From: Candidatus Firestonebacteria bacterium RIFOXYD2_FULL_39_29
GTDB taxonomy: Bacteria; Oederibacteriota; D2-FULL-39-29
Length of the DNA: 33,481 nucleotides
Reading direction: 5' to 3'
NCBI GenBank assembly: GCA_001778375.1
Contig: MFGV01000029.1
Location: 1-33,481 of the forward strand
Under the pieces are notes generated by a model. The model made no database searches, had not been told where the DNA came from, and saw nothing but the letters and a program-made list of their open reading frames with translations. The position numbers and the translations under genes are program-made. Shown here in pieces: positions 3,501 to 28,723 of the stretch (position 1 is the first letter of the stretch; each line of letters opens with the position of its first letter).

Positions 3501-5398
3501 ATAAAATCATCGCTGCCAAGATGGTAAACAGTGCCTAAATGCCCGGTATTTATTTTTAATATATCGGCTATGGCGCGTATAAGTTCATTTCCTTTTTCAT
3601 AACCATTAACTATATTGAAATATTTAAAGTTATTGAGGTCCAGTAATATGGCTGTGAATTTCTTCTTATATTTTATTGCCTTTTTTATTTGATATTTTGC
3701 AGACAGTTCATTTCTCAAGCCGGTGAATGTATCAATATGTCGAAGTTTAACCCTCTTATTCAGAAGTAAAACCAAAATCATTAAAAGCACGGTAAATATT
3801 CCGGAAAGTGGGGTAAAACTGAAATGCACCGGAGAAATGTTCTTGTATGAAATATCTTTTGGTACAATTCCGGAGTTTACGCTTACCCTGATGTCCAGGG
3901 TGCCGTAACCCTCCGGCTTCAGAATGACAGATGCAAGTCCATTCGCGTCGCTTTTCGTCGACAGGGCCGCCAGACTGCCTTTACCTTTGATTATATTAAA
4001 AAACATTTGCACACCTTTGACCGGAAGATAATTGGAATCCGTTATAAGAGCGCAAACAGCGGGCTTGCCTGATTTTTGCGACAGGTAAACATTCAGCTTG
4101 GAGGGAGTCCCCGCATTTTTTCTGGCGAGAACTATTTGACTTTCGGTATTAACGGATACTGCCTGTGCGGGAAGTTTTTCACATGAGGCTCTTACCGAGT
4201 TTACACCGGCTTTAGCACCTGTTCGAAGCGTGAGGACAGCCTTGCCGTATTTACCTGTATAGACAATTTTAGAACTGAGCTTGCCGGTGCCTGCTGACAC
4301 TTTAAAATTTACGGCGGCGCCCGTAACGGGATTCCCTTTTTTGTCGAAAACCGCTGCGGTTAAAGTTACCTCATCTCCTGCCGTCACAAACGAGTGATTA
4401 GCTTTAAGTTCCAGCTTTGCCGGAGGTAAAATGAGACTGGTTACATTTATAGTCAAAAGAGCCGGCTCCAAATCTTTTGCTCTTTCTTCATTGATTAACT
4501 TTACCCCGGCCACTATAGTTCCTTCTGCATCACCGCTTCTGAGTTTAACAAAACAGATTCCGTCAGCCGCGGTCACTGCTTCCGCGGGTTCAAACCGTGC
4601 GGCGCCTTCGGTAACCGAAAAACTTACTTTTATGTTTGCAGCAGGATTTTTGCGGATGTCTTCCACCTTTACTTTGAGGGTTGTACTGCTTTTTGTAAAG
4701 ATATCGTAAGATTCGGCCGTTGTCTGAAAAGAAGTTATCGGAGAGGGGATGATGGATATCTCTTTAATCTGAGAGGAAAGAGTGCCTGCGGATACTTCCA
4801 ATTTGACTGTTCCCGTATTTTTTCCGGCCTTTACACCTGTACAGAATTTACCTCCGGCATCAGTCTTTCCAGAAGACTGCTCTAGTACCATCAGTTTTGT
4901 AGAATTGATTGTTACAGGGACATTAGAGCAAGGTCTATTTTTGGTGTTGTTTACAAAAACGGTAATCCTGCCTGAGGTCTCAGGATAGAATATCTCTTGA
5001 TCAATGTTTACGGAAAAATCCAGGGGTGGTGAGTCCATTCCTTTAATACTGATAAAGACCGGGTCGGTTGTATCTGCTTCTATTTTTAAAATATTCATTC
5101 CGGGCGTATTTCCGGTGGTAAAGACCGTTCGTGTTATGCCTGCTAAGTTAGTGAAAACAGGTTCCGGTTTTACAAAACCGCCGCCCGATACGACAGAAAA
5201 TGTTACCTGGGCGTGGTTAATGGCGTAATCTTTAAGGTCTGTTACGTTAACCGTGATATTCGCATCCTCACCGGCATCAACAGCCTCGACATTCGAGGCG
5301 GCTTTTATTATATTATCAGCATATAGGTCTAAAGGCAGAAGAGCCAGCAAAAGAAATGCCATAATCAATGTTTCTATCTCTTTACCACTGTTTCTCAT
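563..5398 (-). CDS. Giant membrane protein: five Ig-like domains, GGDEF-like, Ig-like, second degenerate GGDEF-like, coiled coil, TPR
   Basis: This 1611-residue protein starts at ATG 5398 behind AAGGAAGG. In order it shows: a signal or anchor segment (1-27); five bacterial Ig-like (invasin/Big-type) repeats (about 30-115, 125-218, 220-322, 325-425, 430-520); a membrane helix (531-547); a GGDEF-like domain (552-730) with DTFTGLRNE, DLNNFKYFN and GSDDF (628-632) at the active site; a second helix (738-754); a sixth Ig-like domain (760-855); a third helix (866-890); a second GGDEF-like fold whose signature is WKDRF (968-972); a Glu/Lys/Arg/Ala-rich coiled coil (1105-1280); and TPR-like repeats (1300-1595). 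Inferred topology puts the Ig parts outside the inner membrane and the GGDEF, coiled-coil and TPR parts in the cytoplasm. The first GGDEF may be weakly active or only bind nucleotide; the second looks catalytically dead. It could act as a surface or envelope sensor-scaffold. A PilZ protein is encoded at 14955. Its exact function is unknown. Confidence 0.85.
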   Translation of the reverse strand: MRNSGKEIETLIMAFLLLALLPLDLYADNIIKAASNVEAVDAGEDANITVNVTDLKDYAINHAQVTFSVVSGGGFVKPEPVFTNLAGITRTVFTTGNTPGMNILKIEADTTDPVFISIKGMDSPPLDFSVNIDQEIFYPETSGRITVFVNNTKNRPCSNVPVTINSTKLMVLEQSSGKTDAGGKFCTGVKAGKNTGTVKLEVSAGTLSSQIKEISIIPSPITSFQTTAESYDIFTKSSTTLKVKVEDIRKNPAANIKVSFSVTEGAARFEPAEAVTAADGICFVKLRSGDAEGTIVAGVKLINEERAKDLEPALLTINVTSLILPPAKLELKANHSFVTAGDEVTLTAAVFDKKGNPVTGAAVNFKVSAGTGKLSSKIVYTGKYGKAVLTLRTGAKAGVNSVRASCEKLPAQAVSVNTESQIVLARKNAGTPSKLNVYLSQKSGKPAVCALITDSNYLPVKGVQMFFNIIKGKGSLAALSTKSDANGLASVILKPEGYGTLDIRVSVNSGIVPKDISYKNISPVHFSFTPLSGIFTVLLMILVLLLNKRVKLRHIDTFTGLRNELSAKYQIKKAIKYKKKFTAILLDLNNFKYFNIVNGYEKGNELIRAIADILKINTGHLGTVYHLGSDDFMVLIKKNKAEGVPEELAKKIAEKIKSFYPEEEQRTGLVHIEEKSRKELPLTSVSLAVMDSRFFPVSNFNEFIDKAEKVMKAAKIKDGNGVAHNIDSNPDIGRQYKIGWFTVLSLLFVLLLPYSSQAKEPQMNLGAWSSSQSAGTGKTVKITAHVSDPKEHPVSNAFVVFSVGKGDGYVKDSYSITDDSGNCSVIFFTGKTKGINTINVYSNGLLPVEVKVTGRQMGMEVLNYSLTFLLPFCIFLLLVKIVNMLLLLRGIDKDSGYRTRFFAEKNIRNLSRESGDFVTTFIQFRDFREFCKIYGYHKGDKVIKNFSKCIKNSVLEANGKPEEIFYYWKDRFTIVSGSMDPELFTKYLIKNMEIMVPLLCSNRTENYSTLNLLIARIESSQLKVKYLEEIMNAGETLMNKAKGNTGNFDLSYSKYLSDEKAKISAEAATAGAVKKALPEKIDVEAVQPEIHMEPSMEEINTEEENKYALDEKKAAEELKEKETQIRMQTENARKLDMELRLQKEIKEYNEKEAEKHMKLEAEKKAIREAEISLRRENEKRVMRELENRAKLEAKEEMAKRETEKKALKLAKKMAKREAKEKARLLAEQTAMREAEVKARLLAEQTAMREAEVKARILAEQTAKFKAEELARLLEETEKTNHFEGENVLEEDTKYYNNKEISCLEQKVAQDPENIELHVKLSDLYYANNMHQKAVEKLLFLADNFFESKLYKYALKFYLRIVEIDQNYLPAKIKIARIYIQSDMDREAKFELLSISELYLVQDNMEKAEEFANQAIEFKSLEAHYILGAVYYKRGLLKEAAEEMITLLKIKPKHLKALQCLFYSRMASKDFIQALTAYEKISAVEANPGENSKDCPNESFAKECMKFLMNEVDALVQKKLVSEAVQLTQIIIDKLPENIEVKAKMASLMEVKGLPKEAAQSYRKVSVFYLGQKQRAEAEKYSKMADKLDPLPAVNTVAEPGEKAKKNAVSYL
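1613..1756 (-). repeat. 48-bp tandem repeat inside the coiled-coil region
   Basis: Three 48-bp units start at 1613, 1661 and 1709. On the coding (minus) strand each encodes a 16-residue helical heptad-like unit of the type KARLLAEQTAMREAEV, at about residues 1221-1268. The middle and distal units are nearly identical at DNA level, which points to recent slippage or duplication. Copy number may vary between strains or be collapsed in assembly. Confidence 0.85.
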
Positions 5399-21360: not shown

Positions 21361-22455
21361 ATGCAAGTACCGTTAATCGACTTAAAAGCGCAATATCAGA
21401 ATATTAAAAGTGAGTTGAACCTTGCAGTTGAAGCTGTCCTTGCCGGCGGGCACTTTATCCTCGGACCTGAGGTTACAAAGCTGGAAGAGGAGATGGCAAA
21501 GTTTTTTGGTTCCAAATACGCTATTGGCGTTAATTCCGGAACTGACGCTCTTTTTCTTGCCGTAAAGGCGCTTGGAATAAATGAAGGCGATGAAGTTATT
21601 GTCCCTGCGTTCTCATTTTTTGCCTCTGCGGAAACGGTGACCTTGGCCGGCGCAAAAGTAGTTTTTACCGATATACGTCCTGATACGTATAATATTGATA
21701 TAAAACATCTTGAAGAAAAGATAACTCCAAAAACAAGGGCAATAATGCCCGTGCATTTATACGGTCAGCCTTCTGATATGGATCAGATAATGTACATTGC
21801 AAACAAACACAAACTTAAAGTGATAGAGGATTGCGCACAGTCTATAGGCGCAGAATATCGCGGGAAAAAGACCGGAAATATCGGAGATATCGGCTGTTTG
21901 AGTTTCTTCCCGACCAAGAATCTTGGTTGTGCCGGAGACGGCGGCATGGTACTGACCAATAATGAAGAATATGCCAATCTGATAAAACTTCTTCGGGCTC
22001 ACGGTTCCTCAAAAAAATATATTCACTCGGAGATAGGGATAAACAGTCGGCTTGACGAGATACAGGCTGCAGTTATCCGGGTAAAGCTTAAATATATCCA
22101 GGCCTGGAATGAAAAAAGAAGAAAAAATGCAAAGTTCTATAATAATAATTTGAAAGGTATTGTGACCCCGTTTGAACAGGATTTTGCAAAGCATATTTAT
22201 CATCAATATACAGTAAGAGTGGAAAACGGAAAAAGAGATGCTTTCCAGGAATATCTTAAAGGGCAGGGAATATCGACAGCTGTTCATTATCCTATCCCCA
22301 TGCACAAACAGGAAGCATACACAAAACTTGGCTATAATGTCCGCATGCCCGAAAGTGAAAAAGCCGCATTGGAAGTATGCTCTCTTCCAAACTATCCCGA
22401 AATGACCGAAGAGATGCTGGATTATGTAGTGGTAACGATTAATAACTATAAATAA
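21361..22455 (+). CDS. wbpE: DegT/DnrJ/EryC1 sugar aminotransferase (WbpE-like)
   Basis: PLP-dependent transfer of an amino group from glutamate to a keto-sugar nucleotide. The 364-residue protein starts [14 protein letters not shown] and has [57 protein letters not shown] and the PLP lysine K186 in [15 protein letters not shown], as in the WbpE/WlbC group. It would aminate C3 of UDP-3-keto-GlcNAcA. ATG 21361 sits five bases after AAAGGAG; the upstream in-frame ATG-less extension from 21337 is repeat DNA. It follows the acetyltransferase by 187 bases and precedes the epimerase by 199. Confidence 0.88.
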
Positions 22456-22456
22456 A

Positions 22457-22484
22457 AGAAGGTTCTGGGTCCTGGGTGCTAGGT
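22457..22484 (+). repeat. TTCTGGGTCCTGGGTGCTAGG-type short array
   Basis: Immediately after the aminotransferase stop, units GGTTCTG, GGTCCTG, GGTGCTA and GGTTT follow at a 7-base period. This is a different unit from those in the other gaps but has the same position and period. Confidence 0.6.
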
Positions 22485-22559
22485 TTACACTCTGGAGTTT
22501 TAAATTTAAATAATGACACATTAATGTAAGCAAAGCTTTTCTCGGTATGAGTGATATAT

Positions 22560-22583
22560 TTTTGTCAACATATGTTGACAAAA
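22560..22583. promoter_or_regulatory. Perfect 24-bp palindrome, probable operator
   Basis: The half-site TTTTGTCAACAT is followed directly by its reverse complement with no loop. The core AACATATGTT resembles the Gram-positive-type LexA (SOS) box, differing in the flanking base on each side (C for G). It lies 72 bases upstream of the epimerase ATG and contains TTGACA (22575-22580). A dimeric repressor site is the likely role. Confidence 0.6.
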
Positions 22584-22627
22584 CGAGATAGCACCCGCTA
22601 CCCGTAACGTTTTTTTAGTTTGCATTG

Positions 22628-22633
22628 TAAAAT
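22628..22633 (+). promoter_or_regulatory. Possible -10 box for the epimerase gene
   Basis: TAAAAT lies 22 bases before ATG 22655, with the strong ribosome-binding site AAAGGAGGGG between. The same hexamer precedes two other genes in the window at similar distance. No good -35 is visible. Confidence 0.35.
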
Positions 22634-22654
22634 TTACTTCGAAAAGGAGGGGTA

Positions 22655-23761
22655 ATGCGACCTTTATTTGTTTTCGGTACCCGTCCTGAGGCTTTAAAGC
22701 TGGTGCTTCTTATAAAACAGTTTAAAAATCCTGTGATCTGCGTTACCGGTCAGCATAATCAGATGCTTTATCAGGCTTTGAAGCTTTTTAATGTAAAACC
22801 GCATTATGACCTTAAGGTGATGAAGAAGAATCAGACGCTCTTTTCGATAACCGCGAATATACTGCTCAAGATTGAAAAAGTATTAGAAAAAGAAAAACCC
22901 GATGTGGTTATCGTTCAGGGGGATACTACCTCGGCATTTGCAGGCGCTTTGGCCGCTTTTTACAAGAAAATTCCCGTTGCCCATGTAGAAGCAGGGCTTC
23001 GTACGTATGATAAATATGCTCCCTTTCCGGAAGAAATAAACAGGAAGCTCGTTACCCCGATTGCCGACGTATTTTTCGCTCCGACAAAAGAAGCCGCTGT
23101 AAATCTTATAAAAGAAGCCATTCCTGAGAATAAAATATTTGTAACAGGGAACACTTCCATTGACTCTCTGATTTTTATGGTGAAAAAATTAAAAAAAGAA
23201 GAGAAAGCACGCCAGCAGTATTTTAAAAAAGAGTTTGGTATAACATTTAACACAAAAATGATACTCGTCACCGGTCACAGAAGGGAAAACTTTGGACAGG
23301 GCTTCAAGAACATCTGCCATGCTTTGAAAGATATCGCTAAAAACAACGACGCACTGATAATCTACCCCGTACATCTTAACCCGAACGTTCAAAAGCCCGT
23401 GACGGAAATACTTTCTAACGTCTCAAACATAAAACTCATCCCACCCATGGATTACGAAAACTTCGTCTACCTGATGTCCAAATCCCATTTCATAATCACC
23501 GACTCCGGCGGAGTCCAAGAAGAAGCCCCTTCCCTGAAAAAACCTGTTCTCGTAATGCGTGAGGTAACCGAACGCCAGGAAGGCGTTGCCGCAAAAAATG
23601 CAATTTTGGTCGGCACCGACAGAAAACGAATAGTAAAGCTTGCAACAGAGCTTTTAAAAACCGGCACCCTGTCCCGCCGCATGACCGCCAAGAAAAACCC
23701 CTACGGCGATGGTCAAGCATCGGTGAGAATCAGGAATATTTTGAATAGGAAGTTTAGCTGA
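22655..23761 (+). CDS. wbpI: UDP-N-acetyl sugar 2-epimerase, non-hydrolysing (WbpI/WecB-like)
   Basis: The enzyme inverts C2 of a UDP-N-acetylated sugar, interconverting the gluco and manno forms. The 368-residue protein begins FVFGTRPEALKL and has TGQHNQML, VVIVQGDTTSAFAGALAAFY, HVEAGLRTYDKYAPFPEEINRKL, VTGHRRENFGQG and TDSGGVQEEAPSLKKPVLVMREVTERQE, the whole signature of the family. With WbpA-, WbpD- and WbpE-like genes upstream, the substrate is more likely UDP-GlcNAc(3NAc)A (WbpI) than UDP-GlcNAc (WecB), though the sequence alone cannot separate them. Codons in the last third (from about 23340) end in C much more often than in the first two thirds, which may mark recombination. Confidence 0.9.
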   Translation: MRPLFVFGTRPEALKLVLLIKQFKNPVICVTGQHNQMLYQALKLFNVKPHYDLKVMKKNQTLFSITANILLKIEKVLEKEKPDVVIVQGDTTSAFAGALAAFYKKIPVAHVEAGLRTYDKYAPFPEEINRKLVTPIADVFFAPTKEAAVNLIKEAIPENKIFVTGNTSIDSLIFMVKKLKKEEKARQQYFKKEFGITFNTKMILVTGHRRENFGQGFKNICHALKDIAKNNDALIIYPVHLNPNVQKPVTEILSNVSNIKLIPPMDYENFVYLMSKSHFIITDSGGVQEEAPSLKKPVLVMREVTERQEGVAAKNAILVGTDRKRIVKLATELLKTGTLSRRMTAKKNPYGDGQASVRIRNILNRKFS

Positions 23762-23808
23762 GCTTTAATAAGAAATGCAAGTTTGACAAAAACTGGCACA
23801 GGTGATAA

Positions 23809-24549
23809 ATGAAATACACATTTTTCTTAGATGAGACAGGGGATCATGGTTTGAGTTTTATTGACAAAAACTTTCCTCTTTTTTTGTTGTGTGGATGTCT
23901 TATAAGCGAAGATGATCTTTTAGATATTGAGACTGCTTTAAATGAATTTAAAATCAAATATTTTGGAAGCAAGTCTGTAGTTTTACATTCCAGAGAAATA
24001 AGAAAATGCGAGGGAGCCTTTCAGGTACTTTTTGATACGAAGTTGAAATCACAGTTTTATAATGATTTGAATGGGTTGTTGGAAAAGGCGAACATAACGA
24101 TTATTGGTGCAGGGATAAATAAAGAAGAATACATTAAAAAGTACGGGAAAGATGCAAAGGATCCTTATAGTATTTGTCTGTCGTTCGTTATAGAAAGAAT
24201 GACTTTTTGTCTTGACAAAAAAGATAACGATGGCAAAGCTGAAATTATTGTTGAGAAAAGAGGAAAGAAAGAAGATGTAATGCTTGAAGCGCATTTTAAT
24301 TCAATAAATGATAGGGGAACCTTTTACGTTACGAGGCAAAGGATGCAAAAAAGAATACTCGGATTTAGTTTTTTGCATAAGCTTGATAATAATATCGGCT
24401 TGCAGTTGTCGGACTTGATTGCTTATCCACTGGCAAGAAAGACTCTCTATCCGGAAGTACACTATATTCCATTCCAGATACTGGAAAAGAAAATATACTG
24501 TAATGATATTGGCGAATACAAGGGATGGGGTTTGAAAATATTCCCATAA
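23809..24549 (+). CDS. DUF3800 domain protein
   Basis: This 246-residue protein matches DUF3800, predicted to have an RNase H-like fold. The N-terminal strand carries the family motif as FFLDETGDHG (D8, E9). A middle section has SICLSFVIERMTF, a strand IIVEKRGKKEDVMLEAHFN follows, and the C-terminal part has the conserved LQLSDLIAYPLARK. These acidic residues would form a metal-dependent nuclease-like site. ATG 23809 follows AGGTGA. It is more AT-rich than the epimerase gene upstream, suggesting separate acquisition. A candidate structured RNA gene on the opposite strand terminates at its stop codon. DUF3800 genes are known from mobile and defence-like settings; the biochemical role is not established. 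Confidence 0.85.
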   Translation: MKYTFFLDETGDHGLSFIDKNFPLFLLCGCLISEDDLLDIETALNEFKIKYFGSKSVVLHSREIRKCEGAFQVLFDTKLKSQFYNDLNGLLEKANITIIGAGINKEEYIKKYGKDAKDPYSICLSFVIERMTFCLDKKDNDGKAEIIVEKRGKKEDVMLEAHFNSINDRGTFYVTRQRMQKRILGFSFLHKLDNNIGLQLSDLIAYPLARKTLYPEVHYIPFQILEKKIYCNDIGEYKGWGLKIFP

Positions 24550-24576
24550 AAGCAGAAAGCCTCCCTTTCGAGAGGC
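24548..24576 (-). terminator. Rho-independent terminator of the minus-strand ncRNA
   Basis: Read on the minus strand, GCCTCTC and GGGAGGC form a 7-bp stem (24559-24576) closed by a GAAA tetraloop, followed by TTTCTGCTTTT. It ends within two bases of the DUF3800 stop codon. On the plus strand no T-run follows, so it works in the minus direction. Confidence 0.75.
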
Positions 24577-24817
24577 CTCTGTCGACCGGGAGACACCCCG
24601 ATCCTTTCAGAAAGTATTTATTTAATTTAGGGCTGTTAAGTTTTGTCCAACAGTCCTCTTAAATGCCGACGGTTTTACTTGGTAAAACCTAATAACAGTA
24701 TATACTATATTTAAGGAATTTGCAATAGCCATGCAGCTCGAAAACAGGGGACTATGGCATTGTTTTGTCCCCTAAATAAAAACACCACCTGCGACCCATT
24801 CGGGTTTTCAGTGGTTC
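24548..24817 (-). ncRNA. Candidate structured non-coding RNA convergent with DUF3800
   Basis: A unit of about 270 nt runs from a predicted start near 24817 to the terminator at 24559-24548. Visible pairings (plus coordinates) are: hairpin 24784-24789 with 24810-24815, enclosing 24794-24797 with 24802-24805; stem 24746-24752 with 24767-24773 (AGGGGAC/GTCCCCT); stem 24723-24732 with 24754-24762, whose second strand lies in the loop of the previous stem, giving an H-type pseudoknot; hairpin 24671-24678 with 24682-24689 (8 bp); hairpin 24633-24637 with 24649-24653; hairpin 24584-24590 with 24597-24603; and long-range ATTTAGGG 24625-24632 with CCCTAAAT 24770-24777, which competes with the pseudoknot stem. 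No long reading frame exists. It does not match tmRNA, 6S, SRP or RNase P RNA consensus that I know. RNA motifs linked to DUF3800 genes have been described by comparative genomics; whether this is one of them is untested. Confidence 0.7.
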
Positions 24818-24823
24818 AGTATT

Positions 24824-24852
24824 ATTATAGTAAAAAGAATAGGTTTTGTCAA
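24824..24852 (-). promoter_or_regulatory. Consensus sigma70-type promoter of the ncRNA
   Basis: On the minus strand TTGACA (24852-24847) and TATAAT (24829-24824) match consensus at all twelve positions with a 17-base spacer. No ribosome-binding site or reading frame follows, so the transcript is expected to be non-coding and highly expressed unless repressed. Confidence 0.9.
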
Positions 24853-25058
24853 GGTAGTCACAGAAATTGCAGGAATTCCTCAAGAAGGAAAAAGTACGTA
24901 TTTTTTCCTTGTAGTTGATCAATTTATTGAGCGTTTTTAAGGCGCCCGATGAATCTGGCAGCTACAAAATTACGAAAATAACCGTCATGAGGAATTTCTT
25001 AGATGTTATTATAAAAACGCTGGATTCCGGCTCTGAGTCCGGAATAACAAAGGAAAAC
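24853..25058. other. Gap with hairpin and a palindromic GGATTCCGG...CCGGAATAAC repeat
   Basis: A 9-bp hairpin, AAGGAAAAA (24885-24893) with TTTTTCCTT (24902-24910), comes first. ATTCCGG (25024-25030) and CCGGAAT (25039-25045) then form an inverted repeat in the frame CTGGATTCC to GGAATAAC, the reverse-complement layout of the repeat at 11716-11748. A reading frame from TTG 24915 or ATG 24987 into the next gene crosses this repeat and is probably not translated. Confidence 0.5.
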
Positions 25059-25622
25059 ATGCGAACAGAGGGGAAGATTCAAAGTACTCCAAGAATATAT
25101 CTGCTGACAGCTTGGACTATAATGCGCAGCCCGTTCTTTATGATTACTTTTTCTTTCGCACTGTTTGGTCTGGGTATTGTGTTATTGAATAAAAAAGAAG
25201 TTTTAGAGGGTTTCGTACATTTCATGACAGTTGTTTTGGGCAGCATTCCGGAAATTGTTACATGGGTAATAGTATCTGATGAATTTATAGCGGCTTTCAC
25301 TGTTATATCTGTTTTGTTATGCTTCTTTACGTTGTTCATTGAAAAGTCCTGGGCTGTTTTAGTAATCGGTATTATAAATATTATAATAAGTGTTTTTATT
25401 TATATTGTGAGATTGAGCCACTTGGCTTTTATTCCGTTATTTCTTAGTGCATATCCTTTATTGAAGTACGCTCTTTTACCGGGAAAATATAAAAAAAATA
25501 TGAAAATAGTCCTTTTTAGACAAATACCTTTTACGCTTTTAATAGTAATCATTTTTTACATGTTCGCATTTTATTGCCTTGTTCCAGGGGGGATTTTCAG
25601 CGGGTGGAGTTGTACGGATTAA
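25059..25622 (+). CDS. Hypothetical polytopic membrane protein
   Basis: I do not recognise this protein. From ATG 25059, preceded by AAAGGA, it has 187 residues and about five hydrophobic helices (about 22-45, 52-70, 75-95, 97-120, 155-180) with a short basic loop (LLPGKYKKNMK). It resembles small Yip1-like membrane proteins in layout only. An in-frame ATG at 24987 would add 24 residues, but these derive from the palindromic repeat. It ends 34 bases before the DUF2157 gene and could be co-transcribed with it. Confidence 0.6.
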   Translation: MRTEGKIQSTPRIYLLTAWTIMRSPFFMITFSFALFGLGIVLLNKKEVLEGFVHFMTVVLGSIPEIVTWVIVSDEFIAAFTVISVLLCFFTLFIEKSWAVLVIGIINIIISVFIYIVRLSHLAFIPLFLSAYPLLKYALLPGKYKKNMKIVLFRQIPFTLLIVIIFYMFAFYCLVPGGIFSGWSCTD

Positions 25623-25656
25623 GTTGATTATCATTAATAAATGTTCAGGAGGTTTT

Positions 25657-27354
25657 ATGCATGATATGGGGTGGATTATACTTGGGATCGTTGTAATATT
25701 AGGGATACCCTCGGCGATTACTTATGTTATTGTCAGGATGGTGATGTTGCGGTCGAGGGGGAGATGGCTTCAGGGGCAGATACGGCTCTGGGAGGAAGGG
25801 AAGATAATAACGCCGGATCAGACGGATGCGATACTTTCTTTCAATAAGATTAACAGGGCGGTGCCTAAAAGGAAAATTGATATGATACGGATTATCACTT
25901 TGTTCGGGGCTGTCTTTATCGGGATCGGACTCATATTTCTTGTCGCGAGCAACTGGCAGGATATTCCTGCGCATGTCAGGACGGCTACACTCCTGATACT
26001 TACTATCGGCACGCTCTGGACAGGGTACTTCCTCTCTTACGAGAACGGGAAATATCCCATCCTCGGGAAAAGTTTGATAGTTCTTTCTTCTATTCTTTGG
26101 GGAGCGACTTTGGCGCTTATTGCGCAGATATACAATCTGAGCTCTGACGGGAGCTGGGTAATCCTTATTCTTTGGGCTGCACCTTTACTTCCGCTCACGT
26201 ATTTTCTCGACAACGAGTACATATATATACTTGCCTCGGTATTATTCGGTATCTGGAACATCTCTTTCAGCGTTGGGAAGAGCTTGCCCAATTACTACTA
26301 TCCCGGGATAGTTTTCTTATGTCTTTTCCCACTGGCGAAGAAGTTTGAAAAGGGTCTGGCGCTTAACCTTGTCGGTCTCTTGATTGGTGCTTTTTACGCA
26401 GCTGCTATGAAATATGTCTACGTCCCTTATGAGATTTTCCTCGGGCTTATCGTTTACTACCTTGCAAAGCTCATAAAACCGCCGCTCACCGAAGAGTTGT
26501 TCCTGGTCTTTTCAAGCGTAGCTTTGCTTGCTTCCGGTATCGGCTTTAGCGCATCAGTTGATTTCAAGTCCCCGGATTATATCTTTATAATCCCGCTTGT
26601 TCTGATGTTCTTCTTGTCATATAAGAATAAAGCAAAGGCAAGCTTGGGTATAAACATCCTTAATGTGATGGTCTGGCTGAACTTCCTTATTGCAGCTGTC
26701 GTGAATACGTACAAACTGAAAGCCGGTGCGATTGCGAGCGGGAGTTTTGAGATATTCCTCGGAGTCATTATCTATCTTATCGGCATGGTTCATGAAAACA
26801 AAGAAGAAGATAAGGATTACGGTAACATCTATAAAATATTCGGCTTTATGATTGTCTTCGGAGTGCTCTATTTCCTTTCGTTCAACGAGATACACGATAA
26901 AGAGGTACTCAAAAACAATTTTATGACCAACATTTCCTTTGCTCTGGCAGGTCTGAGTGTCCTCGGCTTTGTGTATATATATGTAAGCGGGTTTTTGAAG
27001 ACAAAGCAGGCAAAACTCGAAGCGCTTGCGGTCGGACTTGCAGTCATCGGCACGGCCATTATGCTTTTGAACAGCGGAACGCCGAAAGCCAATGTGGTTG
27101 TAGCCAATGCGGTACTTGTAGTTATCGCCGCCGTTATGCTATTTTTCGGAATGGAAGTACAATCCCCGAAGATTTTTAATTCCGGCGTTGCCACTTTGAT
27201 CTTGTTTATCGCCACGAGGTACATGGATGTCTTCTGGAAGCTGAAAGAAAAGTCGCTCTTCTTTATAGTCAGCGGTATTTTGTTTATCGCGGGAGGCATT
27301 TTCCTTGAGAAGAAGAGAAAGGGAATTGTAGGGAGGATGAAAGATGAAAAATAG
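25657..27354 (+). CDS. DUF2157 polytopic membrane protein
   Basis: This 565-residue inner-membrane protein has a short N-terminal helix, a cytoplasmic stretch with QGQIRLWEEGKIITPDQTDAILSF, as in the N-terminal part of DUF2157 proteins, and then about 14 hydrophobic helices from IRIITLFGAVFIGIGLIFLVASNWQDIP onward. The motif ASNW.xIP at the end of the first long helix is typical of the family. ATG 25657 follows AGGAGG, so an upstream extension to 25579 is rejected. The downstream gene encodes a GDYXXLXY protein and overlaps by 11 bases; this two-gene pair is widespread and of unknown function. Confidence 0.88.
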   Translation: MHDMGWIILGIVVILGIPSAITYVIVRMVMLRSRGRWLQGQIRLWEEGKIITPDQTDAILSFNKINRAVPKRKIDMIRIITLFGAVFIGIGLIFLVASNWQDIPAHVRTATLLILTIGTLWTGYFLSYENGKYPILGKSLIVLSSILWGATLALIAQIYNLSSDGSWVILILWAAPLLPLTYFLDNEYIYILASVLFGIWNISFSVGKSLPNYYYPGIVFLCLFPLAKKFEKGLALNLVGLLIGAFYAAAMKYVYVPYEIFLGLIVYYLAKLIKPPLTEELFLVFSSVALLASGIGFSASVDFKSPDYIFIIPLVLMFFLSYKNKAKASLGINILNVMVWLNFLIAAVVNTYKLKAGAIASGSFEIFLGVIIYLIGMVHENKEEDKDYGNIYKIFGFMIVFGVLYFLSFNEIHDKEVLKNNFMTNISFALAGLSVLGFVYIYVSGFLKTKQAKLEALAVGLAVIGTAIMLLNSGTPKANVVVANAVLVVIAAVMLFFGMEVQSPKIFNSGVATLILFIATRYMDVFWKLKEKSLFFIVSGILFIAGGIFLEKKRKGIVGRMKDEK

Positions 27355-28024: not shown

Positions 28025-28043
28025 ATGATTAGAGGTGACTAAT

Positions 28044-28283
28044 ATGCTTGTGAAAAAGACATATAAAAACCAGATTACGCTTCCGAAAGCGCTTTCTGAC
28101 AGGTTTCCGGGAGTTGACTACTTTGAAGCTAATGAGAATGAGACGGGTTATATTGTTTTAAAACCTGTCAAAATGATGCCTTCAAAGGAATCAAACGCTG
28201 AAATAGTGAAGAACAAAATAGCTAAACTCGGTATTAACGAAAAAGATATCGAAAAGGCGATAGAATGGGCAAGAAAGAAATAA
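28044..28283 (+). CDS. AbrB/SpoVT-type antitoxin
   Basis: This 79-residue protein starts MLVKKTYKNQITLPKALSDRFPG, a swapped-hairpin AbrB DNA-binding motif, and ends in an acidic/basic helix (ESNAEIVKNKIAKLGINEKDIEKAIEWARKK) that could wrap the toxin. I chose ATG 28044, eight bases after AGAGG; GTG 28035 would add three residues. It overlaps the PIN-domain gene by 19 bases. It should neutralise the toxin and repress the promoter at 27973-28024. Confidence 0.88.
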   Translation: MLVKKTYKNQITLPKALSDRFPGVDYFEANENETGYIVLKPVKMMPSKESNAEIVKNKIAKLGINEKDIEKAIEWARKK

Positions 28284-28723
28284 TTCCCGCCGGAGGTATC
28301 ACTTTAAAAAAGCTAAAAGTTGTTATTGATACTAATGTATTTATCTCTTCTGTCCTTTTCCGCGGTAAATTAGAGGTGCTTGTGAAAAATTGGAAAAACG
28401 GCACTTTTGAATATTTGCTTTCCAAAGAAGTTTTAAATGAATACATACGCGTTCTGCATTATTCGAAGTTTGAAATAAATTCTGTGGAAATTAAGGAAAT
28501 TGTCGACGAAGAACTTCTTCCTTACATAACTCCTGTTGTAATCCACACTAATATTAAAGTTGTTAAGAAAGATCCCGCTGATGATAAGTTCTTTGCTCTT
28601 GCCATTGCTGGTAAAGCTGATGTTATTGTCAGCGGGGATATCCATGTTCTCTCTATTAAAAAGTATAAAGCAATAGCGGTCTTAAGTCCTTTAGATTTCA
28701 TAAAAATGCTGAGGGCCGGATAA
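28265..28723 (+). CDS. PIN-domain toxin (ribonuclease)
   Basis: This 152-residue protein belongs to the putative toxin PIN family. VVIDTNVFISSVLFRG holds the first catalytic aspartate (D22), E59 lies in SKEVLNEYIRVL, D106/D107 in DPADDKFFALAIAGKADVIVSGD, and D125 closes the Mg-binding quartet, so the active site looks intact. It would cut RNA when not bound by the antitoxin. ATG 28265 lies within the antitoxin gene; a second GGAGG at about 28292 precedes the conserved start of the domain but has no usual start codon after it. Confidence 0.88.
   Translation: MGKKEIIPAGGITLKKLKVVIDTNVFISSVLFRGKLEVLVKNWKNGTFEYLLSKEVLNEYIRVLHYSKFEINSVEIKEIVDEELLPYITPVVIHTNIKVVKKDPADDKFFALAIAGKADVIVSGDIHVLSIKKYKAIAVLSPLDFIKMLRAG

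Follow-up and report, generated by a model that had tools for sequence, protein, structure and literature searches.

A DUF3800 gene and a convergent small RNA in Candidatus Firestonebacteria: a possible RNA-restrained nuclease module with relatives in many phyla

Structured small RNAs that adjoin genes of the DUF3800 family are collected in Rfam as DUF3800-I to -XI, and to our knowledge these motifs stand there without an assigned function. In a different nuclease family, AbiF/Abi_2, it has been shown experimentally that a single RNA (the antitoxin RCd22/AbiFr) binds and neutralises the protein (PMC12373285; PMC12737573). DUF3800 proteins are also found as accessory proteins at Cas12a2 and VI-F CRISPR loci, where they contain an RNase H-fold domain (PMC10910872, PMC12669027), and for one CRISPR-associated DUF3800 the catalytic site is reported to be rearranged (PMC10910872).

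The DNA analysed here, referred to as the window, is a stretch of 33,481 nucleotides (contig MFGV01000029.1) from Candidatus Firestonebacteria bacterium RIFOXYD2_FULL_39_29. It carries an intact DUF3800 gene and, judging from the sequence, this gene has its own partner in a convergent RNA of about 60 nt with two hairpins, which we call RNA C. The arrangement is of a known kind, that of the Rfam DUF3800 motifs, in which a structured small RNA adjoins a DUF3800 gene, and RNA C is likewise conserved, covarying and adjacent to its gene. Like DUF3800-V (RF02964), it is convergent and abuts the DUF3800 C-terminus. However, it is shorter than DUF3800-V, which has 96 nt; its two hairpins follow one after the other, and its conserved core is not the same. 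RNA C is a new family, missing from Rfam and with an unusually wide distribution. The suggestion of the first-pass annotation that an RNase H-like DUF3800 protein and a convergent structured RNA form a two-part system akin to the Rfam motifs is well supported, while its picture of the RNA had to be redrawn.

The DUF3800 gene lies at 23809-24549 on the plus strand, as first annotated, and its product of 246 aa matches PF12686 with 62.8 bits (gathering cut-off 21, E=7.7e-17), residues 5-211 covering positions 2-149 of the 149 in the profile. The AlphaFold2 model of the protein is confident (pLDDT 95.9, pTM 0.92), and its best PDB matches in Foldseek were RNase HII and RNase H2, at a probability of about 1.00, E values of 3e-4 to 5e-3, TM-scores of 0.35-0.5 and 12-13 % identity. 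Residues D8, E9, E149, R151, Q199 and D202 are all present in the window protein and invariant across 31 sequences, and would fit a candidate RNase H-type metal site. The motif DE[ST]G in the first strand resembles the DEAGRG motif of RNase HII. On the strength of the model, DUF3800 is predicted to be a nuclease with an RNase HII/H2-like fold, of which the acidic residues D8, E9, E149 and D202 are invariant. These enzymes are its closest solved folds; the DUF3800 gene differs from them in being accessory, mobile and accompanied by an RNA. Searches with DUF3800 in PADLOC and against PDB sequences gave no useful match. With the Cas12a2-linked proteins the window protein has in common the predicted RNase H fold and a defence setting, but those proteins have TPR domains and adjoin CRISPR, whereas the one in the window consists of a single domain that stands alone and is accompanied by a small RNA of its own. 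No CRISPR was noted near the window cassette. Among the neighbouring genes, a reading frame for 235 aa without a Pfam match (24915-25622) has the RNA cluster on one side and a DUF2157 gene on the other, and 3.5 kb from the cassette a small gene is followed by an overlapping PIN-domain gene (28035-28723; PF13470, E=4e-20), a pair that looks like a VapBC-type toxin-antitoxin system.

Opposite the DUF3800 gene, a single RNA of about 270 nt with no coding potential, containing a pseudoknot and a competing long-range pairing and possibly acting as a conformational switch, had been proposed to be transcribed from a perfect minus-strand promoter. The promoter (TTGACA-17-TATAAT, 24852-24824) is present, as is the GAAA-loop hairpin or terminator ending at the DUF3800 stop codon, and the strong folding was confirmed, 24545-24820 beating 200 of 200 dinucleotide shuffles (z=-3.8); the single molecule was not. 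As read from comparison with related genomes, the stretch holds three small-RNA genes (A, B and C) in tandem on the minus strand and the remnant of another DUF3800 gene on the plus strand. A DNA search of five genomes of the window's family gave two separate matches in the sister genome G003, the first part of the stretch matching on contig C73 and the middle on contig C197, so that A and B are conserved apart from each other.

RNA A (24774-24818, minus strand) is a short hairpin RNA that follows the perfect promoter, and its hairpin and U-run end at about 24774. At the C73 site (locus L002) the promoter and the 45-nt RNA A face another DUF3800 gene, which is intact, in convergent orientation. 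The RNA is identical at 44 of 45 positions and both promoter hexamers are unchanged, whereas the promoter spacer agrees at only 10 of 17. In the window, the U-run of RNA A covers the stop codon of a fragment of 13 codons on the plus strand (24738-24779, SKTGDYGIVLSPK and stop), which aligns with the C-terminus of the intact gene in L002/L008 (ASRTGDYGIVVTPK and stop; 25/36 nt in the compared part). The L008 gene scores over the PF12686 cut-off. Since 24738-24779 is homologous to the 3' end of an intact gene, the stretch cannot be called non-coding there; it is what remains of a second DUF3800 gene, with which RNA A was once paired.

RNA B (24632-24692, minus strand) consists of the hairpin GGUUUUA-CCAAG-UAAAACC, the sequence GUCGGCA and a terminator-like stem, the U-run of which is eroded in the window. 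Its promoter (24697-24725, minus strand) reads TTGCAA-17-TATACT, and the sister locus L003 has TTGCAA and TATAAT in the corresponding places. In G003 RNA B is solitary and has its own promoter and terminator (C197; L003 1501-1576, 87 % identical). There it ends against a short reading frame (L003 1585-1740, ending in GHTARYGAQRKKCKQIKEEDLKIIIK and stop) that is not DUF3800-like. RNA A is thus a leftover from the loss of its partner protein, and RNA B probably has the same origin. Elsewhere in the phylum, outside G003, RNAs A and B gave only short low-scoring matches, and neither their exact cores nor relatives of the partner protein of RNA A were found in viral contigs. Four distant relatives of that protein are located on Rhodococcus plasmids, and the scan of the one read (L124) showed no strong antisense promoter.

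RNA C (24547-24604, minus strand) starts near 24604 and is composed of hairpin 1 (24603-24597/24590-24584), a linker and the terminator hairpin 2 (24581-24571/24563-24553), with a U-run that ends on the stop codon of the window DUF3800 gene. Its candidate promoter (24611-24639, minus strand) is weak: TTAACA (24639-24634), 17 nt and TACTTT (24616-24611). It is placed in the same way as the strong promoters of L012/L026 and L017-L022; the automatic scan preferred TGGACA-18-TTAAAT, which is also weak. Promoter quality in the window runs from perfect (A) through good (B) to weak (C). A motif resembling GUCG(R)CA is found on the 3' side of hairpin 1 in all three window RNAs (GGGUCGCAGG, CCGUCGGCAU and GGUCGACAGA), a hint that A, B and C may be diverged versions of one RNA.

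With three independent RNA genes and a gene remnant in this stretch, the pseudoknot and the conformational switch are unsupported. One helix (24746-24752/24767-24773) and one arm (24754-24762) of the pseudoknot sit in the remnant codons, the second arm (24723-24732) shares nucleotides with the -35 box in front of RNA B, and the competing long-range pairing would join parts of different genes. A single RNA of 270 nt that switches between competing stems would still agree with the low folding energy of the whole stretch, and as RNA B lacks a U-run in its window terminator, read-through from B to C is possible. However, the separate conservation of A and B at two sites of the sister genome, the occurrence of C without A and B in other genomes and the position of most of the pseudoknot in remnant codons leave this reading a negligible share of the probability. 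The window would then hold one live cassette, DUF3800 with RNA C, and the remains of others.

Compensatory base changes were looked for in a plain MAFFT alignment of 22 RNA C loci and are present. The predicted pairs are formed in 93.2 % of the cells, compared to 84.9 % in shuffled alignments and at most 64 % when the pairing was slid, and 12 of 18 pairs show double-sided changes, a number that none of 500 shuffles reached. Cells with a G-U pair are frequent (78) and those with a C-A mismatch few (6), so that the opposite strand would pair in only 75 %; the structured molecule is thus the convergent RNA and not the DUF3800 mRNA. Across the loci RNA C has the core GGAUCGGGGUGUCUCCCGGUCGGCA followed by a variable terminator hairpin, and hairpin 1 and the GUCGGYA linker keep their sequence from one phylum to another. 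The 3' end is situated -6 to +5 nt from the end of the stop codon (28 loci).

Relatives of the window protein with 24-65 % identity occur, going by record titles, in Omnitrophota, Nitrospirae, Nitrospinae, Proteobacteria, Deltaproteobacteria, Patescibacteria groups, Actinomycetes, Brocadia, Bacteroidota, Verrucomicrobiota (Opitutales), Margulisbacteria groups and others, and also in viral contigs. A conserved RNA was sought near these genes, and RNA C was found at the stop codon of most of the closer relatives, in about a dozen phyla and in phages and plasmids. The RNA C model (R1) matches the window at 24607-24546 with 66 bits, the window sequence being part of its training set. For an independent set, DUF3800 relatives from phage and plasmid records were kept out of model building; in seven of the eight loci read the model matched at the stop codon (36-45 bits), two of the seven (L111 and L113) being near-identical. 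The eighth, L112 from a Lacticaseibacillus paracasei plasmid, is without RNA C. In this locus (3944-5259) the DUF3800 gene directly precedes a mazF toxin gene, occupying the place of the antitoxin.

In 67 genomes or records every match of at least 41 bits was at a DUF3800 gene, one per genome. Many matches were obtained below about 35 bits, and the five inspected looked like ordinary terminators, so RNA C as a dispersed free-standing RNA was rejected. The comparison with Rfam DUF3800-I to -XI proposed earlier gave no match at E<=1 in positions 22000-27000 of the window, nor did any Rfam model match RNAs A, B or C. In the C-type loci there was no gathering-level match to an Rfam DUF3800 model; DUF3800-V reached this level in L006 and L056 only, neither of them C-type.

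Other DUF3800 genes have other RNAs in the same place. In the class to which the window belongs (nine genomes) there are six DUF3800 genes, and reading by eye finds at all six an antisense promoter-like sequence and a compact hairpin-rich stretch running into the stop codon; the RNA of one, L006, is DUF3800-V (70 bits). The window's own genome has a second, distant DUF3800 gene (G000:C5:33033-33611; L010 1390-2277), with an antisense promoter-like TTGCAT-17-TAGAAT of its own and, where the gene stops, a stretch that can fold but is of another type. All six DUF3800-V RNAs in the window's phylum are convergent and abut a DUF3800 C-terminus. DUF3800-I was not found in 200 genomes of one phylum. 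Two further RNAs, with structures predicted from small alignments, occupy the position of RNA C at the DUF3800 stop codon: type D (AAGGG..ACUGCG..GCGG; 7 sequences, double changes in 7 of 11 pairs) and type E (AAUCC..GGAGGUGGA; 5 sequences, double changes in 17 of 23 pairs). A viral contig (L056 2745-3055) has a type D RNA at the DUF3800 stop codon and DUF3800-V further downstream with no recognisable gene, tandem RNAs that parallel the arrangement in the window.

When RNA type was mapped on a protein tree of 43 rows, with types D and E called by eye and some uncertainty in several deep branches, 8 changes were needed (minimum 5), compared to a mean of 18.8 for shuffled types, and none of 200 shuffles was as low. 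On this tree, RNA type tracks protein clade. Within the type C part the phyla are mixed, and the window forms a group with a MAG of Omnitrophota and a viral contig. This indicates horizontal transfer.

Promoter-like sequences were scored by a consensus scan of the 100 nt beyond the stop codon in 50 loci, which, some being related, are not all independent; scores were higher in the antisense than in the sense direction (9.54 and 7.87, Wilcoxon p=1.8e-8), and at 56 % of loci the antisense score was within the top 5 % of shuffles. It could be argued that, in the manner of convergent type I toxin-antitoxin pairs, RNA C or its transcription merely limits the DUF3800 mRNA through the overlapping 3' ends, its structure being a terminator. 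The convergent genes, an RNA that finishes at the stop codon and the frequency with which the antisense promoter exceeds chance would suit such antisense control. An antisense RNA would, however, need neither hairpin 1 nor the GUCGGYA linker, which are conserved across phyla, and the covariation on the RNA strand and the RNA types differing by protein clade further speak against it; we consider it improbable.

The surroundings of the cassettes suggest mobility and a role in defence. In loci read individually, restriction-modification genes recur beside C-type cassettes: the cassette lies between mod and res in L019 and L022, has methylase genes on either side in L020, and is located between hsdM and hsdS in L021 and between hsdS and hsdR in L026, where hsdS was called from the look of the protein and Methylase_S counts. 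GmrSD is found beside the cassette in L024. In Pseudomonas phage JBD68 the DUF3800 gene gp43 begins at the final base of the gene for a repressor that carries an S24 peptidase domain, and in Paracoccus phage Pkon1 one small gene separates DUF3800 from a CI-like repressor upstream. In Sinorhizobium meliloti a clean empty site could not be defined, the cassette-free plasmids being too divergent around the cassette to mark its ends.

Such a setting would also be expected of a ribonucleoprotein effector, in which the nuclease depends on RNA C as a positive cofactor (be it scaffold, activator or recognition element) and the pair is a defence enzyme, not a restrained toxin. An RNA cofactor of this kind would give most of the signs that an RNA antitoxin gives, including the one-to-one pairing and the co-segregation of RNA and protein, and DUF3800 proteins with an RNase H fold do occur near CRISPR effectors (PMC10910872, PMC12669027). 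A guide role, suggested in the first-pass annotation, is unlikely for RNA C because the 5' leader, which can be nearly absent or reach about 20 nt, has no set length and a variable segment of fixed length is absent; its 3' end is a terminator, and RNA C thus does not resemble the RNAs of IscB/TnpB or Cas nucleases. The absence of a guide-like segment weighs against the cofactor, as does the RNA remaining intact where the protein is destroyed, although part of these losses may be recent. On balance we regard a positive cofactor as somewhat less likely than restraint, and as its most serious competitor.

Loss of the protein is frequent. C-type loci with a broken protein and an intact RNA are L020 (in-frame stop), L028 (internal deletion), L030, a complete Brocadia genome, and L048 (frameshift in both), and L038, which has lost residues 81-246 and has the RNA at the junction. 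Several strains of S. meliloti have independent lesions in the DUF3800 gene of pSymA (8 bp duplicated behind the start codon, insertions of 1 nt and a 285-bp deletion of the promoter and N-terminus), with the RNA unchanged in the strains compared; in strain SM11 the gene is intact. The gene is likewise broken beside an intact RNA in three of six DUF3800-V loci. Part of the lesions could be sequencing errors. The converse, an intact C-clade protein lacking its RNA, was not seen in C-type loci. The targets differ in size, about 740 bp for the protein and 100 bp for the RNA, and protein-first loss is expected at about 7:1 from gene length alone; nine protein-first events would have a probability of about 0.3 under neutrality. 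The asymmetry is therefore suggestive only, and protein-first loss was rejected as a proof of toxicity.

The same loci bear on the opposite polarity, in which the RNA or a neighbouring gene is harmful and DUF3800 is an antidote that cuts or sequesters it. A transposon screen classed an accessory DUF3800 gene of Legionella pneumophila HL-0604 as essential (PMC7811196), and in L. paracasei DUF3800 stands ahead of mazF; both would fit an antidote. A toxic RNA would, however, be lethal in the many natural genomes in which the DUF3800 gene is broken and the adjoining RNA, C or DUF3800-V, is intact, and we hold this explanation to be very improbable.

At a probability of roughly 0.4, our preferred reading is that RNA C restrains the DUF3800 nuclease and that the pair is an RNA-antitoxin or abortive-infection module. 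This is the best fit to the combination of a predicted nuclease, a dedicated RNA with its own promoter, mobility, a defence context and a protein that seems costly or dispensable. RNA C, separately transcribed, would bind the DUF3800 protein and hold the nuclease inactive; when RNA synthesis halts, or a phage disturbs the cell, the stabler protein would outlast the RNA and cut nucleic acid. The module would spread horizontally, and restriction-modification operons as well as immunity regions of prophages would often take it up. Against restraint count the DUF3800-mazF pair of L. paracasei without RNA C, the weakness of the promoter that RNA C has in the window and the essentiality in HL-0604, which is the opposite of what is expected of a toxin gene and argues against a universal toxin role. 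The polarity may differ between subfamilies, or the restraint model may be wrong.

Like type III toxin-antitoxin systems, the cassette pairs a structured RNA one-to-one with a nuclease gene, here a nuclease by its predicted fold. It is not ToxIN-like: in ToxIN the RNA is a tandem repeat, upstream and co-directional, whereas RNA C is single-copy, downstream and convergent. The closer likeness is to AbiF, where a single-copy structured RNA also lies beside a nuclease gene and is carried by phages and mobile DNA, but AbiF is a HEPN RNase and the DUF3800 protein has a predicted RNase H fold, and RNA C is convergent with its gene.

More tentatively, DUF3800-RNA cassettes may form an undescribed class of RNA-controlled RNase H2-like nucleases, in which co-evolution with unrelated compact RNAs (types C, D, E and A and Rfam DUF3800-V at the least) has taken place repeatedly within one protein superfamily. 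Such cassettes would be mobile across phyla, phages and plasmids and serve as a second-line abortive defence in restriction-modification operons, and solitary RNAs such as A and B may be kept as anti-addiction immunity to cassettes that arrive in the cell. We propose a common rule for DUF3800 RNAs: a convergent position, a terminator on the stop codon, an RNA type that matches the protein clade, an RNase H2-like partner and a defence context. As the carriers include the well-studied Pseudomonas phage JBD68 (gp43) and S. meliloti pSymA, ordinary laboratory strains would suffice for testing the function. Should the RNA restrain the nuclease, DUF3800 would join HEPN AbiF as the second fold known to have a single-copy RNA as its antitoxin, and this would also bear on the presence of DUF3800 in some CRISPR loci.
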